This document shows positions 8,950 through 40,368 of a stretch of DNA of 40,515 nucleotides, one piece after another. The notes beneath the pieces were generated by a model that was not told the origin of the DNA, searched no databases, and worked only from the letters and a program-made list of their open reading frames with translations. The stretch is from positions 1 to 40,515 of IMG/VR virus record IMGVR_UViG_3300045912_000463. One strand, given 5' to 3'. Both the position numbers and the translations under genes were made by a program. This DNA comes from a virus. Numbering within the stretch: position 1 is the stretch's first letter; every line of letters begins with the position of its first letter.

Positions 8950-9677
8950 AGGGCCTATCGACGGAGCGCCTCGACGAGCTGCTGCGACTGGTAGCGGAGC
9001 TGGAGCTGCATACGGATGTCCAGAACAACAGGCGTATCTGCGCACGTGCGGGGTGCGGCCAACCGATCACGCGCTCGCGTACCGAATGCGACGCACAATA
9101 CGAGCGCAAGCGCTACTGTTCGCGCAAGTGCGGCGCCATCGCCAAGCACGCCACTCAGCGGGCGGCGAGGGTGGCAGCGCTGCCTCTGCGCGTCTGCGAG
9201 CACTGCGGCAAAACATTAACCATCCGCCCCTCCGAGCCGCTGCACAAATTTAAGGCACGCCGATACTGCAACCGCTCATGCGACATGCGACACCGTCACG
9301 AGCTGCGCAAACAGCAGGCCGCGTCCAACTCAACCCTGCAGAGTCCCGTCGAATCCCGCGAATCCCGCCAGAAACGCAGTGGGGGACGCACGATCCGCAG
9401 CGTCGATCCCGCGGATCTGCAGCGGGCCATCGAGCGGCGACAGGCTGAGAAGCGCGACGACCTCCCCGACCCGCGCCCCGCGCATCTGCGCGAGGGATAT
9501 AAGCCGCCAGGTGGCGTCGTGGTCGAGGCGGCGGTGTCGTGGGGTACGTGTGAGCGCTGCGGCGGCAAGCTCGGCCCGGACGGCTGCGGGGACTGCCAGC
9601 GCCGCGAGCGGTGGCTGGCCGGCCAGCGCAAGCAAGCGCAACGCATCAAAGGCGCCTACGAAGGAGGCCCTCGATGA
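8913..9677 (+). CDS. Multi-zinc-ribbon protein
   Basis: 254 residues with three cysteine clusters that look like zinc sites: CARAGCGQPI...YCSRKCG (~42-76), CEHCGKTL...YCNRSCD (~95-125) and CERCGGKLGPDGCGDC (~217-232). The first two resemble the 'YCSxxC' recognition motifs found in many phage and plasmid nucleic-acid-binding proteins. I chose the ATG at 8913 because AAGGAG lies 8 nt upstream. The product is basic and probably binds DNA or RNA. Its target is unknown. Confidence 0.7.
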   Translation: MGSVSINISIPLKGLSTERLDELLRLVAELELHTDVQNNRRICARAGCGQPITRSRTECDAQYERKRYCSRKCGAIAKHATQRAARVAALPLRVCEHCGKTLTIRPSEPLHKFKARRYCNRSCDMRHRHELRKQQAASNSTLQSPVESRESRQKRSGGRTIRSVDPADLQRAIERRQAEKRDDLPDPRPAHLREGYKPPGGVVVEAAVSWGTCERCGGKLGPDGCGDCQRRERWLAGQRKQAQRIKGAYEGGPR

Positions 9678-9934
9678 AGTGCTCCGACATCCACATCGCC
9701 CTATCCACCCTGCGGCTGCGCTCCGGGCGCCCGTTCGAGCTGATCGACGACGAGGGACGGCGGACGCGAATCATGCACCTCGATGGCGACCGCTTCGAGC
9801 TGCGCATGCGCGGCGGGCGGATCGTCGAATACGACGCCGAGATGATGGCCGACATGCTCTTCTTCCTCGAGGGTCGCCTCACGCTGCGGGAGATCGGGAT
9901 GGTCGAGTACGAGGTGAACCGTGAACTGGCCTGA
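9674..9934 (+). CDS. Hypothetical protein
   Basis: 86 residues (IHIALSTLRLRSGRPFELIDDEGRRTRIMHLDGDRFELRMRGGRIVEYDAEMMADMLFFLEGRLTLRE). The alternating beta pattern suggests a small barrel. ATGA coupling and GGAGG upstream support translation. Not recognised. Confidence 0.65.
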   Translation: MKCSDIHIALSTLRLRSGRPFELIDDEGRRTRIMHLDGDRFELRMRGGRIVEYDAEMMADMLFFLEGRLTLREIGMVEYEVNRELA

Positions 9935-10007
9935 TGTCGTGTTCCTCTTCTTCGCGCTGGCCGCGCTGGTGGCCACCGTGATCGTGTCGAAGGAGCGTCG
10001 TGACTAA
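9921..10007 (+). CDS. Very small membrane peptide
   Basis: 28 residues from GTG: a single membrane span (WPDVVFLFFALAALVATVIV) with the basic tail SKERRD. GAGGTG lies upstream. It overlaps both neighbouring genes (14 bp and 8 bp), as coupled phage genes do here. Single-span microproteins often modulate a membrane partner, but no partner is visible. Confidence 0.5.
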   Translation: MNWPDVVFLFFALAALVATVIVSKERRD

Positions 10008-10407
10008 GCAACTCCCCCTGAAGTTCCCGACCGTCACCGCGCCACGCTGGGAGGACGACAAGGTCGAGTGGGCGTGCTGGTACCTGCGCGAGAACGGGCA
10101 CATCTACAAGGAGTTCAGGCGCCGTGCAGACGAAGCCATGAAGGCCGACCCTCACGGGCCAATGAGCGCGGACGACATCCTGCACTCAATTCGTTGGGAC
10201 ACGCGACTCAAGGCGAAGGGGGACGTGTTCAAAATCAACGACCACGCTAGCGCCCTCTTTGCCCGGCTATACATCGAAGAGCGTCCCCACGCCCAGAAGA
10301 ACTTTAGGTCGCGCAAGTCGTTCTTCGACATGCTGACCAATAACGAACGAGAACGTCTCATGCGGGCCTTTGAGCCGCTCAGGATCAACAAGCGGAGGTT
10401 CGTGTGA
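10000..10407 (+). CDS. Conserved-type phage protein of unknown function
   Basis: 135 residues. The central part (ADDILHSIRWDTRLKAKGDVFKINDHASALFARLYIEERPHAQKNFRSRKS) resembles a recurrent phage family with the pattern 'IRWxxxxxTxGDxFKLNNNxxxxYAR', which is often found beside phage replication or DNA-methylation genes. I recall the pattern but cannot name a reaction. It has a GTG start with AAGGAG upstream. Confidence 0.6.
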   Translation: MTKQLPLKFPTVTAPRWEDDKVEWACWYLRENGHIYKEFRRRADEAMKADPHGPMSADDILHSIRWDTRLKAKGDVFKINDHASALFARLYIEERPHAQKNFRSRKSFFDMLTNNERERLMRAFEPLRINKRRFV

Positions 10408-10856
10408 CCGTGCTCGACGCGCCGCGCCTCAAGACCGCCACCAACCTCGAAAAGTGGCGGGCCGACTTTGTCCTATACGCCCTCTGGCGCGTTGCTCACG
10501 ACCGCGACCACTGGCGGCACCTGCGCACCAAGCCGCTGCACCTCGTCGGCAACGGCAGCGGCCGGGGCGGCAGCCTGGGCGGCGCCGCATACTTGCGCGT
10601 CCGCGTCAAGGCGCTCCCGGCCCTGGGCATCGAAGCGCACGAGCTGCGGCTGTGGCGCGACGACTACGTGCGGGCGCTCAAGAACCTATCCAGCGACCAG
10701 CGGCACGAGCTGAAGTACCACCTCGCCAGGCCGCGCTACAGCAGCGTATTTCGGTTCCATCGCCGCGCGGGCCTCGTCCAGGCCAGCGACACGGTAGAGG
10801 CGGCGCTCGCCCAGGCCGCACTGAAAATCGCGGGGTGGGCGGAGGTGGTAGCATGA
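10404..10856 (+). CDS. Hypothetical protein
   Basis: 150 residues, GTG start after GGAGG. It is basic and probably helical, with a Gly-rich turn (GNGSGRGGSLGGAAYLRVRVKAL) in the middle. Not recognised. It is coupled to the following RHH gene by ATGATG across the stop. Confidence 0.6.
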   Translation: MTVLDAPRLKTATNLEKWRADFVLYALWRVAHDRDHWRHLRTKPLHLVGNGSGRGGSLGGAAYLRVRVKALPALGIEAHELRLWRDDYVRALKNLSSDQRHELKYHLARPRYSSVFRFHRRAGLVQASDTVEAALAQAALKIAGWAEVVA

Positions 10857-11071
10857 TGGCAGTGGCCGAGAACCGCTCCCGGCGCGGCAAATGGGGCGGA
10901 GCACGACCTGGAGCAGGGCGAAAGGCGGAGCTGGCCGATCCTGCACACGTAGGAACCGCCATAGAACGTGAAGAGCTGGAACAGCTCGACGCCTTAGCCA
11001 GAGAGCGAAACCTGACCAGGGCACAGCTTCTCCGTGAGATCATATCGGGATACTTGAAAAGAATCACGTAA
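10853..11071 (+). CDS. Ribbon-helix-helix DNA-binding protein
   Basis: 72 residues. The N-terminal RGKWGGARPGAGRK is an AT-hook-like arm common in phage DNA-binding proteins. Residues ~38-70 (HVGTAIEREELEQLDALARERNLTRAQLLREIISGYLKRI) fit the Arc/CopG ribbon-helix-helix fold. It is the last gene before a 62-nt inverted repeat, which could be its operator. Confidence 0.7.
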   Translation: MMAVAENRSRRGKWGGARPGAGRKAELADPAHVGTAIEREELEQLDALARERNLTRAQLLREIISGYLKRIT

Positions 11072-11078
11072 TCAATTA

Positions 11079-11140
11079 AAGTTGGAGCATCACGAGAGGC
11101 CGAGACTGGTCAGGTTCCAGCCTCTCGTGAAATCCAACTT
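11079..11140 (+). promoter_or_regulatory. Long two-part hairpin upstream of the 11152 gene
   Basis: AAGTTGGA (11079-11086) and CACGAGAGGC (11091-11100) pair perfectly with GCCTCTCGTG (11120-11129) and TCCAACTT (11133-11140). That is 18 bp with a small GCAT/AAA internal loop and a 19-nt apical loop. It ends directly at AGGAG, the ribosome site of the next gene. No T-run follows. It could be an RNA control element, a processing site or a protein-binding palindrome. Confidence 0.6.
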
Positions 11141-11151
11141 AGGAGTGGATC

Positions 11152-11346
11152 ATGGCTAGGATAGCACACGATCCGGACCTAGACACCCTACAAGCCGCAG
11201 ACGACCCCATCAAGCGCTTCGTGGAGAACCGCTTGAACCAGCTCATGGCGAGGCTCGATTTGCCCATCGAGCTGTCCGACGAGATTTGGGAAGTCTACAC
11301 CCAGGGCATGCAGGACGGGAACCTGCGGATCGGAGATTTTAGATGA
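11152..11346 (+). CDS. Hypothetical protein ahead of the antirepressor
   Basis: 64 residues, acidic and mostly helical (DDPIKRFVENRLNQLMARLDLPIELSDEIWEVYTQGMQDG). Not recognised. The start follows AGGAG at the foot of the hairpin leader, and the stop overlaps the antirepressor start as ATGA, so the two are probably controlled together. Confidence 0.65.
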   Translation: MARIAHDPDLDTLQAADDPIKRFVENRLNQLMARLDLPIELSDEIWEVYTQGMQDGNLRIGDFR

Positions 11347-12134
11347 GCCACCTGACACACTTCGAGGGCAATGAACTGCTCGTAATTGAAGTCAACGGAC
11401 GGCGGGCGTTCACCGCTGAAACAGTCGGCAAGGCGCTTGAGTATGAAAAGCCCGGCCCTTCAATAAACAACATCCATCGCCGCAACGACAAAGAGTTCGA
11501 GCAGGGCATCGACTGGGATTGGTTCAACGCTGAGCGGGGTCAAATTGACCCCGCTGAGAGGCATCAAATTGATGCACCTAAAAAATCCCGCTACAGCACG
11601 CGCATCTACTACCAAACCGGCGTCAACCTCATCGGCATGCTCTCCGACCAGCCCAAAGCCGCACTGTTCCGGCGCTGGGCCAAGCAGGTACTCGCCGCTC
11701 ACCAGGCGCCCCACGAAGACCCGGAAGCCGCCACCCTCGAGGCCGTCACCAAGTCGCTCGGCTTCGAGCGGCGCTGCAAGATCTGCCGCAGCCCCCTGCG
11801 CGACGAGATCGACACTATGCTCGACGACCCCACCTTGCGCTACGAAGACATCATTGCCTTTGCCGCCGAGCGTGGCCTGGTCATCAGCCAGGCGGGCCTC
11901 TCCCGCCACCGTTCGCACCGCCTACCCGACGCCGCACCGATCAGCCTTGCCACCAAGCCGGAAGTGGGCATGGCCATCCTCTTCGCCAAACTGCTCGATG
12001 AGGTGCAGCGCCGCAAGCTCAACGCCCTGTCCGACCGAGAGCTGGTCAAGTACGCGCAGGCCGCAGGGCAAACGCTCCTCACCAGCCGCCGCTCCGGAAC
12101 GCTAGCCCTCCCAATCGGCGGCGAACAGCATTAA
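11343..12134 (+). CDS. Bro-N/ORF6N-type antirepressor with C-terminal CxxC/LSRHxxxH domain
   Basis: 263 residues. Residues ~8-118 fit a Bro-N/ORF6N domain (VIEVNGRRAFTAETVGKALEYEKPGPSINNIHRRN...YYQTGVNLIGMLSDQPKAALFRRWAKQVL), usual in phage antirepressors. Residues ~142-198 repeat the zinc-type domain of the small terminase (RRCKICRSPLRDEIDTMLDD...YEDIIAFAAERGLVISQAGLSRHRSHR). The linker at ~63-80 is a tandem octamer ERGQIDPA/ERHQIDAP. By family it would relieve repression or regulate late genes. The fusion with the packaging-type domain is unusual and might tie regulation to DNA recognition. Confidence 0.75.
   Translation: MSHLTHFEGNELLVIEVNGRRAFTAETVGKALEYEKPGPSINNIHRRNDKEFEQGIDWDWFNAERGQIDPAERHQIDAPKKSRYSTRIYYQTGVNLIGMLSDQPKAALFRRWAKQVLAAHQAPHEDPEAATLEAVTKSLGFERRCKICRSPLRDEIDTMLDDPTLRYEDIIAFAAERGLVISQAGLSRHRSHRLPDAAPISLATKPEVGMAILFAKLLDEVQRRKLNALSDRELVKYAQAAGQTLLTSRRSGTLALPIGGEQH
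11533..11575. repeat. Two tandem palindromes in the antirepressor linker
   Basis: AGCGGGGTCAA-A-TTGACCCCGCT (11533-11555; 11-bp arms) is followed by GCATCAA-A-TTGATGC (11561-11575; 7-bp arms). They are two copies of a 24-nt tandem repeat. The bases that differ between the copies change on both arms together, so each copy stays self-complementary while still encoding QID. Confidence 0.8.
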
Positions 12135-12175
12135 GCCTTTATGAACCCACGGGTGAGCAACTTCACGACCAGGAC

Positions 12176-12225
12176 TTGACATATCCCGTATTCAGCAGGG
12201 TAAATTAGGGTAGGCTCGTGACGAG
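12176..12225 (+). promoter_or_regulatory. Putative late promoter
   Basis: A consensus -35 TTGACA (12176-12181) is followed after 19 bp by TAAATT (12201-12206). A long spacer makes a weak basal promoter that needs an activator, as at the C-dependent mom promoter of Mu. CTCGTGACGAG (12215-12225), a perfect palindrome, lies near the expected start site. This 12135-12338 gap separates the regulatory genes from the lysis, head and tail genes, the place a late promoter is needed. Confidence 0.5.
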
Positions 12226-12285
12226 TCTATAAGTCAACGACACTGTAGGCACGAGTTTTAACGCTCAAACCCACATTTTTGAGAC

Positions 12286-12311
12286 GGCCGCTTCTGGTTC
12301 CAGGAGCGGCC
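12286..12311 (+). terminator. GC-rich leader hairpin, possible attenuator
   Basis: GGCCGCT (12286-12292) pairs with AGCGGCC (12305-12311), and CTGG pairs with CCAG inside. The following sequence is CACTTTCATT, a poor T-run. It sits in the leader between the putative late promoter and the first late gene, so it may be a weak terminator or an antitermination target. Confidence 0.4.
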
Positions 12312-12338
12312 ACTTTCATTGGGCGCCGGGAGGCCACC

Positions 12339-12515
12339 ATGCGTTACCTCGGCATGCAGATCAAAAGACTCGAGGAACCGCTGCACGGCTCCCGCGGCTT
12401 TCGGGTCGTGGCCACCGGCAAGGACTTCCCGACCATGCGCGACGCCAAGGCGTACGTCGCCTCCCTGGTCTTTCCTTACCGGCACGGCACCTTCTCCCAC
12501 ATTCGGCAGCCATGA
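12339..12515 (+). CDS. Small hypothetical protein, first gene of the late cluster
   Basis: 58 residues (MRYLGMQIKRLEEPLHGSRGFRVVATGKDFPTMRDAKAYVASLVFPYRHGTFSHIRQP). It has a compact alpha/beta pattern and is not recognised. GGGAGG precedes the ATG, and the stop overlaps the next start as ATGA. Confidence 0.6.
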   Translation: MRYLGMQIKRLEEPLHGSRGFRVVATGKDFPTMRDAKAYVASLVFPYRHGTFSHIRQP

Positions 12516-12769
12516 GGGATCTCGAGCTGGAGATCCTGAAGGGGATCCTCCGGCAGTTGGAAGCCCAACGCGGCATCTCGAGCGAGGATCGGCAACTGGC
12601 CGAGCTACGGGCGCAAGTGCAGGCGTTAGAGCTGACCAGGCGCTTCAAGGACGCGCAAGCCAAGGTGACCTACAGCCGGGTCGTTTCTCTCGCGCTGGCC
12701 GCCATCGCGGGGTTGGTGCTGATCGTGGCGGCCTTGTTGGGCGTGGACGTGTCGGGGGTGTTTCGATGA
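12512..12769 (+). CDS. Coiled-coil protein with C-terminal membrane span
   Basis: 85 residues. A helical, charged N-terminal part (LEILKGILRQLEAQRGISSEDRQLAELRAQVQALELTRRF) is followed by one hydrophobic span (VVSLALAAIAGLVLIVAALLGV). It is coupled by ATGA to the glucosaminidase gene, so it probably belongs to the lysis cassette, perhaps as a lysis regulator or accessory holin. Confidence 0.65.
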   Translation: MRDLELEILKGILRQLEAQRGISSEDRQLAELRAQVQALELTRRFKDAQAKVTYSRVVSLALAAIAGLVLIVAALLGVDVSGVFR

Positions 12770-19549: not shown

Positions 19550-19700
19550 CACTCCCACGGCTAAAGCACGTGGGATTCTTGCTTCACAGCGCTGTGCCGA
19601 CTGATTAGGGTCGGTCTTACCTGCGCTCCACAAGCGTTTAGCGTCTCGGCGTGCCCCGCCGCGACAAGCTGTTTAAGTCCTTCTACTTTGATGTTGTGCG
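19546..19700 (-). ncRNA. Predicted TnpB omega/right-end RNA
   Basis: IS200/IS605 elements transcribe a guide RNA from the tnpB 3' end through the right end. Here it would include the CCCACG/CGTGGG hairpin at 19554-19574 and then read into flanking phage DNA. The guide would start TTCGGCCACTGCAAGA (minus strand below 19546), matching the MuF gene end. The 5' limit is a guess. Confidence 0.4.
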
Positions 19701-20760
19701 CCGCATTCAGGTCGCGGTCTATCACCGCACCACAGGCACACGTCCAAACCCTATCAGCGAGTGTCAGGGCGTCGTTGATAGCGCCGCACTCCATGTGCAG
19801 CTTGGAACTTGGGAAAAACCTGTCTATGACTGCCAGGTGCTTTCGATGCCACACCGTTTTGTACTCGAGTTGCCTACGGAACTCTCCGAGGGCCGCATCA
19901 GACACGCTCTTGGCTAGCTTGGTTCTCGCCATGCCTTTGAGCGATAGGTCTTCGATACAGATACCCTCATAGCCCCTCACTAGGGAGGTGGTCATCTTAT
20001 GGAGAAAGTCTTGACGTTTGTTCCTGACTTTCTGATGGATACGAGCTAGCTGCTGTCTGGCTCTATCACGGTTCTTGCTTCCCTTCTGCTTGCGAGAGAG
20101 CGCCCTTTGTGCGCGTTTCAGCTTCTTCTCGGCGGCGCGGTAGTGCTTGGGCGGCGCTTCCCGTTCACCACTGGAAAGGACAGCGAAGTCTTTGAGCCCG
20201 AGGTCTATGCCTACGACGTTCTCAGGCTTGGCGGGCGGTAGTGGCACGTCCGGCATTTCAAACTCGGCCGTCAGCGTCACATACCACTTGCCGGTGGCGT
20301 CGCGCTTGAAGGTGGCCGACTTGGTTTTGCAGTCAATGTCTTGAGACTGGCGGATGCGTACCCAGCCGATTTTAGGAACGTAGACCTTGCCATCTTCAAC
20401 CTTGACCCGTTGCGGAATGCGGAAGCTCGGCATCTCTCGCTTGCGCGACTTGAACCGAGGAAAGCGCGAGCGTTTCTCAAAGAAGTTCTTGAAGCTGCGG
20501 TCAACGTCCTTGAGCGCCTGTTGAAGGAGCTGCGAGTCAACGCCCTTAAGCCACCCGGTTTCAGGTTGCTTTTTCAGGTCGGTTAGCTCGCTTGAAAGCT
20601 GCTTGGCACTGATGCCCTCCTTGTTCGCCTCATAGAAGTCACGACGCCTAGCCAGCGCCCAATTGAACACGAAGCGTTTCGCCCCAGCCATCTGGCACAG
20701 CAGTTCTTCCTGCGCCTTTGTGGGGCGCATCTGGAAGCGGTAGACCTTGCGAAGCAGCAT
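19561..20760 (-). CDS. tnpB: TnpB, RNA-guided nuclease of IS200/IS605
   Basis: 399 residues. The N-terminal OrfB helix region ([25 protein letters not shown]) is followed by a RuvC-type core: Asp186 (GIDLGLKDF), Glu270 ([12 protein letters not shown]) and Asp350 (IDRDLNAA). The zinc finger is odd: the usual first CxxC is HMEC (His322, Cys325) and the second pair is CAC (341, 343). The catalytic triad is intact. TnpB homologues cut the empty donor site and help retain the element. The start overlaps tnpA (TGATG); the last codons run into the right-end hairpin. Confidence 0.92.
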
Positions 20761-21155
20761 CAGCGTTTCCTCTGCTCTGCAATATACCGCTCAATCGTCT
20801 GGGAGCTGACGTTACCAGCGGTCGAAACGAAATACGAGCGCGTCCACAGACTACGCAACCGCGCCAGATGTGGAAACTCCTGCCGCAACTTGAAGGAGGT
20901 GTAGCCCTTGAGATGACGAACGATGCAATCCACCGAGGTGCTGGGGTCAGCGCCGATGAAGAGATGGAGGTGGTCGGGCATCACCTCTAAGGCGATGACC
21001 TCCCACCCCATCCGTTCGCACTTGTCGTTAAGCAGTTCGCTGAGCCTGTCACTGACGCGCCCTACCAGCAGCTTCTTGCGGTACTTCGGTATCCACACGA
21101 GATGGTAGTTCAAGAGGAATACCGAGGTGGTCTTGTGCTGGTAGGCGCGGGGCAT
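20760..21155 (-). CDS. tnpA: TnpA, Y1 HUH transposase of IS200/IS605
   Basis: 131 residues. The HUH motif is His62-Leu-His64 ([10 protein letters not shown]) and the nucleophile is Tyr124 ([12 protein letters not shown]); the usual [13 protein letters not shown] opening is present. It would excise and insert single-stranded element DNA by recognising the end hairpins. The start overlaps the stop of the upstream 68-residue ORF (TGATG), so translation is coupled to a gene that IS605 elements do not usually carry. Confidence 0.93.
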
Positions 21156-21937: not shown

Positions 21938-22205
21938 ATACCCCCAACTTCTATAAAAAGGGGCTTCAGGCTCCTGGCAGCCTGGCCGCTCCGTACCGGG
22001 CTCTAGGGAGTCCAGGCCCAACCCGGCAGATTCAAGTCATTGTAGCACATGGTACCACACACGCTCTCGCGCGCTGAGAGGCCGTATTTCGCATTGGGGT
22101 ACCCCAGGGTACCCCAAAAGCCCTGCACACGGCTTCTCGCCCAATCTGGCGAGCACTAGACCCCTCCCTTGGGGAGATCGAGACCGAGGAAACGGGAGAC
22201 TGGCC
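21938..22205 (+). other. Non-coding leader of the adhesin gene
   Basis: No gene is seen. TTGGGGTA (22094-22101) pairs with TACCCCAA (22110-22117), and GGGGTACCCC at 22096-22105 is a perfect palindrome. A TATAAA at about 21953 could be a -10 box. This stretch probably holds the promoter and leader of the gene at 22206, and its GC-rich inverted repeats differ from the tight gene packing elsewhere in the phage. Confidence 0.4.
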
Positions 22206-40281: not shown

Positions 40282-40368
40282 GTCGCGCGTCAAATTATTT
40301 GTCACTAAAAGGGCGATTTTGTGACATTTAATTTGACGCGAGAGTGACATTTAATTTGACGCGCGACA
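40282..40368 (-). repeat. Prophage right end with three transposase-site copies (R1-R3)
   Basis: R1 (40344-40361) and R2 (40321-40338) are GTGACATTTAATTTGACG, reading inward on the minus strand, 23 bp apart. R3 (40288-40305) is CGTCAAATTATTTGTCAC in the opposite sense. GTCGCGCGTCAAATTA at 40282-40297 and its exact complement at 40352-40367 form a 16-bp inverted repeat around R2. The terminus at 40368 is set by the 11-nt spacing shared with L1. Confidence 0.85.

Follow-up and report, generated by a model that had tools for sequence, protein, structure and literature searches.

Palindromic binding sites within coding sequence are known from several systems. The intragenic operators of lacZ and galK are repressor-binding palindromes of this kind, and in phage lambda the iterons of the replication origin lie inside the O gene, where they are dyad-symmetric and sit just downstream of the codons for the DNA-binding domain of O; the specificities of O and its iterons are matched between phages. 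At the RNA level, C4 antisense RNA controls expression of ant, the phage antirepressor. To our knowledge, few DNA targets have been described for proteins of the Bro-N, KilA-N and ORF6N families. Coding repeats with dyad symmetry in their DNA and signs of horizontal transfer have been described as PARCELs (PMC2996958).

Here we examine a 40,515-nucleotide stretch of viral DNA (the window) in which two palindromes lie inside a gene for a Bro-N domain protein that appears to encode its own reader, in which respect it differs from the lacZ and galK operators, where a separate repressor does the reading. The nearest known arrangement appears to be that of lambda O, as in both cases a DNA-binding domain and dyad sites share one gene. 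However, lambda O is a single initiator of replication whose sites form an iteron array, whereas Bro-N-type genes, which include the SOS gene dinD as well as regulators and antirepressors, mostly carry one site each and have no known origin. The C4 antisense RNA (RF01695) is a separate RNA element upstream of its gene; two of the loci discussed below, L043 and L049, have one, whereas in the window none reaches the gathering score. The likeness to PARCELs consists in protein-coding repeats with dyad symmetry in the DNA, but the repeats of PARCELs are 25 residues long, amphipathic and arranged in tandem in other proteins, and the abstract names no protein that reads them (PMC2996958), whereas the repeat in the window has an 8-residue unit in two copies within a DNA-binding domain and does not class as a PARCEL. 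Among the titles and abstracts found by searching one open-access library, none describes a palindrome located within a gene of the Bro-N, KilA-N or ORF6N type, and no paper combines 'KilA-N' with 'palindrome'; the passage of PMC8263062 that concerns a Bro-N/KilAC gene names it merely as a neighbour.

The Bro-N gene of the window and its two palindromes

One Bro-N gene was identified in the window, and both palindromes are inside it. The features are as follows.

11343..12134, + strand: gene for a 263-residue protein with an antirepressor-like Bro-N domain (open reading frame; PF02498; PHROG anti-repressor families)
11415..11435, + strand: first helix of the predicted helix-turn-helix, residues 25-31 (AlphaFold2 model)
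11451..11483, + strand: proposed recognition helix, residues 37-47, PGPSINNIHRR (AlphaFold2 model; homologous columns carry the arm code)
11533..11555, no strand: palindrome 1, AGCGGGGTCAAATTGACCCCGCT, perfect 11-bp arms around one base
11561..11575, no strand: palindrome 2, GCATCAAATTGATGC, perfect over 7-bp arms only

The protein matches PF02498 over residues 15-116 with 27.2 bits (curated cut-off 25.6), and nine of its ten PHROG matches carry an anti-repressor annotation. In the AlphaFold2 model, which has a mean pLDDT of 93-97 per ten-residue block over residues 1-50, helices 25-31 and 37-47 form what is, judged by inspection, a predicted helix-turn-helix, and the palindromes are encoded at about residues 64-78, a low-confidence loop predicted to be disordered. 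When a phage Bro-N profile was run against the sequences of solved structures, no relative emerged, and Foldseek gave no match at an E value of 0.001 or better. VIA-align matches with Z scores of 4.8-6.5, among them the N-terminal domain of a granulovirus protein, Mbp1, a PCG2-DNA complex and Dachshund, were set aside as too weak to rely on. As no close relatives of the window protein were found in viral contigs or phage genomes, the argument that follows rests on more distant ones.

The original prediction, that tandem palindromes with paired arms lie inside the antirepressor gene, is borne out at both places. Its statement that each copy is a perfect inverted repeat holds for palindrome 1, which can be extended over 11530-11558 to 14-bp arms with one mismatch; it holds for palindrome 2 over the 7-bp arms only, the bases next to them on the outside being unpaired. 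Both lie within a 24-nt tandem repeat whose copies encode ERGQIDPA and ERHQIDAP and are 86% identical over 21 nt. The window has two perfect palindromes with arms of at least 11 and a spacer of 0-3, at 11533 and 22094, and 30 simulated windows with the same dinucleotide transitions contained one such palindrome in total. When the Bro-N gene was shuffled among synonymous codons, the observed score of 11 was reached in 2 of 1500 shuffles, and a chance origin of palindrome 1 is unlikely. The exact longer palindrome had no match among genome contigs.

Several other elements of the window deserve mention. The repeat GTCAAATTA occurs at 285, 316 and 40289 on the + strand and at 40329 and 40352 on the - strand, that is, near both window ends in mutually inverted orientation, which is the layout that the end sites for the transposase would be expected to have in a Mu-like phage. 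The TCAAATT core of the palindromes had been thought to resemble these end sites, but the likeness amounts to a 7-base overlap, nothing links the end sites to the palindromes, and a connection of the palindromes with the transposase is without support. At 11076-11146, just upstream of the open reading frame at 11152 that precedes the Bro-N gene, we read by eye a long imperfect inverted repeat (AAGTTGGA..CACGAGAGGC / GCCTCTCGTG..TCCAACTT) which may be a regulatory hairpin. An IS200-like transposase gene (PF01797) and an adjoining 399-residue open reading frame occupy 19561-21155 on the - strand, within the phage, and the latter may be an accessory gene. Finally, the double palindrome at 22094-22117 is similar to one at 948-973 of L043 (TTGGGGTACCCCAGGGTACCCCAA, TTTGGGGGTACCCCGGTACCCCCAAA), the two loci being unrelated.

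Recurrence of the site and covariation of its arms

A search of viral contigs with the 17-mer GGGGTCAAATTGACCCC turned up a further Bro-N gene, L009, in which the palindrome of the window recurs alongside a second one, and L026/L043 from Spongiibacter marinus, whose Bro-N gene contains a palindrome with 14-bp arms. Close relatives of L026 keep TCA...TCA...TGA...TGA and have the bases between altered on both arms. The proteins of L009 and L049 share 73% identity, and the first palindrome of L049 has wholly different yet paired arms. Compensatory change of both arms, as originally proposed, is accordingly seen in related Bro-N genes. The phage genes share a layout at one fixed place, TCAGT-N5-TCA-NNN-TGA-N5-ACTGA, with arms that covary even at synonymous sites. 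Used as a DNA pattern, this 29-mer, which fixes the outer and apex bases and leaves N5 free, found 51 viral loci and so supplied part of those studied. Over the 52 sites examined in 50 of these (L029, a twin of L026, was excluded), all five N5 pairs form in 15 sites, four in 9, three in 26, two in 1 and none in 1, with 1.25 per site expected by chance. At least 34 of the 52 sites fall within Bro-N-like genes by protein motif, and four more appear to on inspection by eye. Two protein-profile scans for Bro-N gave 40 and 79 loci, many of them with the palindrome, some with a different apex (CCA/TGG) and some with none; most Bro-N loci have a single strong site inside the searched flanks.

For the pairing statistics, 65 distinct phage Bro-N genes were picked by protein motif, and the outer pairs count for less because the search pattern partly fixes them. 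Pair 8-22 is formed in 57 of the 65 genes, pair 9-21 in 63 and pair 10-20 in 57, where independence expects 23.7, 23.2 and 23.2. Of the pairs at third codon positions, 6-24 forms in 36 and 9-21, as just given, in 63 (expected 21.8 and 23.2). Pairing is weak at positions 6 and 7 (36/65 and 33/65), and the central pair 14-16 does not covary. The amino acids track the pairing, V going with T, L with R and I with M or I, and V..T being swapped to T..V. The codon phase in which this layout is encoded differs between phage genes with SVxVKLTxTDG, the GQID type found in L009, L049 and the window, and the BRO genes of chromosomes, which have SVTDCH, so that across three reading frames it is the DNA that is conserved and not the peptide.

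Chromosomal genes of the wider group also carry palindromes. In 369 genomes of one class, a Bro-N profile search had matches in 48; the 70 chromosomal loci examined comprise profile hits, some duplicated, and a few loci from other searches. A Bro-N open reading frame is present in 68 of these, and in 27 of the 68 the best palindrome lies above all 60 synonymous shuffles; the palindrome score is 10 or more in 37 and below 10 in 31. KilA-N and ORF6N frames exceed all their shuffles in 7 of 12 and 18 of 26 cases. The palindrome of E. coli K-12 dinD, which spans 32 bp, was reached in none of 500 shuffles, and none of 15 neighbouring K-12 genes lies above all 60 of its own; in another E. coli dinD allele, MFDS1016424, the palindrome is weak, and 405 of 500 shuffles reached it. 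The palindromes of chromosomal BRO, DinD, ORF6N and KilA-N genes differ in sequence and occupy a place comparable to that in phage Bro-N genes.

Other elements were noted near some of the loci. In L012 and L015, dense TTTTTGACCCC-type repeats together with the GGGGTCAAATTGACCCC palindrome occur at the end of a helicase-like gene and resemble replication iterons. L156 has two sRNA-Xcc1 RNAs (1301-1388 and 2369-2456) with palindromes nearby, the second RNA lying immediately upstream of a Bro-N gene in which the frame seems to shift after the palindrome, and L207 has two type II hammerhead ribozymes (1384-1450 and 2228-2295) near its Bro-N gene.

Correspondence between helix residues and arm bases

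If the palindrome is bound by the protein whose gene contains it, residues of that protein should vary with the arms. We ranked 43 upstream protein columns by their mutual information with the arm bases in 64 distinct phage Bro-N genes, kept from 72 candidates found by protein motif; this set replaced an earlier one (37 candidates, 35 kept), the motif of which had missed WLEY-type proteins. For arm positions 6, 7, 8, 9 and 10, the top columns were -21, -21, -17, -20 and -16, with z scores of 6.6, 6.6, 13.1, 12.0 and 14.5. These columns are spaced i, i+1, i+4, i+5, as on one helix face, and the codons of the helix are about 60 nt upstream of the arms. In the window protein, the columns -21, -20, -17 and -16 correspond to G38, P39, N42 and N43, residues 2, 3, 6 and 7 of the second helix and hence near the start of helix 37-47.

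Among the 64 genes, D at -17 goes with C8 in 18/18, K at -20 with C9 in 28/29 and R at -21 with G7 in 20/20, while at -16, K goes with G10 in 26/34 and N with C10 in 16/19. Prediction from relatives less than 50% identical was correct in 41/48, 38/47 and 42/53 cases for positions 8, 9 and 10. Of 76 close pairs, 66 differ in arm as well as helix, 6 are alike in both and 4 disagree, and all 36 distant pairs with the same four residues also have the same bases at the three inner arm positions. With 38 or 17 cluster representatives, columns -17, -20 and -16 remain top of 69 for positions 8, 9 and 10; for positions 6 and 7 the best column shifts upon clustering. When only fourfold-degenerate codons are counted, K at -20 still accompanies C9 in 24 of 25, and a contact between helix and loop residues therefore cannot explain the code.

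Comparable relations exist in the other families. For 30 chromosomal BRO genes, the 7-nt inner arm is shared by 64 of 67 same-helix pairs and by 2 of 368 different-helix pairs. Among the 26 ORF6N loci, all 19 genes with a readable helix have a palindrome, pairs with the same residues share five inner bases in 37 of 47 cases (reached by none of 5000 shuffles), and Q, E or R at one position of the helix is accompanied by TCACA, TCGCA or TGCCA, respectively, although there are exceptions. In DinD, helices with WRNF, WDNF, WENF and YRHF each have their own inner arm (15 sequences, by eye; L278 has no palindrome). Covariation shows that, in the genes compared, helix and intragenic palindrome match in specificity, and at the level of the family it is very likely that the protein reads the palindrome in its own gene.

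Some sites do not fit their neighbour. Between L009 and L049, which have two sites each, the helix changes from GRRR to AKRK, yet the inner arm of palindrome 2 is unchanged. In L043, the reading frame upstream of the Bro-N gene, which lies between that gene and a C4 antisense RNA (2206-2290), contains five or six palindromes with differing inner arms (2411-2630), and in L088 a 29-mer-type palindrome (1281-1309) is located outside the gene, about 30 nt upstream of the Bro-N start codon. By our reading of the code, both this array and the L088 site mismatch the helix of the neighbouring protein, from which we conclude that some sites are not for self; the L043 array possibly represents addresses of other Bro-N proteins.

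In the window itself, the helix residues G, P, N and N predict A (or C) at position 8, C at 9 and, at 10, either C or A. Palindrome 2, with G8, C9 and A10, agrees at two of the three code positions, one of which rests on a single other protein, and palindrome 1, the more striking of the two, has GGG and agrees at none. Palindrome 2 is the likelier operator of the window protein, and palindrome 1 might be the site of a protein with a different specificity.

Possible roles of the intragenic site

We consider it probable that the intragenic palindrome is an operator to which the Bro-N protein encoded around it binds as a dimer, with the DNA in double-stranded form. Residues 2, 3, 6 and 7 of the second helix would specify the bases adjoining the conserved TCA/TGA, and, with the helix codons just upstream of the site, reader and target would be inherited together. 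Binding could then block RNA polymerase inside the gene, or loop to the gene's own promoter, and so limit antirepressor synthesis. That autorepression is the purpose of the site is a more tentative proposal, to which we would give slightly less than an even chance.

The protein might instead bind its own site for another purpose, such as tagging its gene for recombination, replication, the action of a nuclease or control of superinfection, with arrays like that of L043 sensing the Bro-N proteins of other phages. The inner bases of the array upstream of the Spongiibacter gene, which are unlike the gene's own, would suit such a role, as would the two differing sites in each of the window, L009 and L049 genes and the presence of sites in chromosomal BRO and DinD genes that have no evident antirepressor role. 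On the other hand, most Bro-N loci have the one strong site within the searched flanks, and on balance we regard these purposes as unlikely, if worth keeping in mind.

It is considerably less probable that the arms pair with each other as a hairpin, in mRNA, in an antisense RNA or in extruded DNA, and that this structure is what is selected. The covariation of the arms in relatives, with near-apex pairs formed in 57, 63 and 57 of 65 genes, is what a hairpin would produce, the lack of covariation at the central pair 14-16 is loop-like, and a C4 antisense RNA does lie upstream of Bro-N in L043 and L049. However, of 89 mismatches, 16 are G-U on the coding strand and 25 on the opposite strand, so there is no coding-strand excess, and a hairpin does not require that helix residues predict arm bases. 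No Rfam family was found in the window at its gathering score, and C4 RNA (RF01695) had no match in 9500-12600 at E values up to 5; an fstAT candidate in the window was set aside (E 0.01, 30.2 bits; gathering score 72). Selection had originally been ascribed to either a hairpin or a palindromic binding site: because the helix residues of the same protein predict which bases the arms carry, the evidence favours the protein-binding site and speaks against the hairpin half of that proposal.

The Rickettsia palindromic elements are the model for a last alternative, a small mobile palindrome inserted in frame into many genes, which could account for the several reading frames and the location in a loop but which we rejected as extremely improbable, since most of the 29-mer sites, at least 34 of 52, belong to Bro-N genes, none of the 369 genomes has the pattern, the arms track helix residues of the same gene, and the families bear palindromes that are unrelated in sequence.

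Returning to the operator reading, it seems likely that the Bro-N/ORF6N/KilA-N superfamily, in phages and chromosomes alike, consists of self-addressed genes, each with its own operator just downstream of the recognition-helix codons in any frame, and that mixed arrays and second sites are the addresses of other phages' proteins. If this is true, the specificities of many uncharacterised proteins could be listed from genomes, a helix-to-base code could be built and tested, and E. coli K-12 dinD would be an immediate bench system. The peptide motifs SVxVKLTxTDG, LRSQFVTS and NPxFNSxEFDG would be partly dictated by the DNA site, and regulator and operator would be inherited as one unit.
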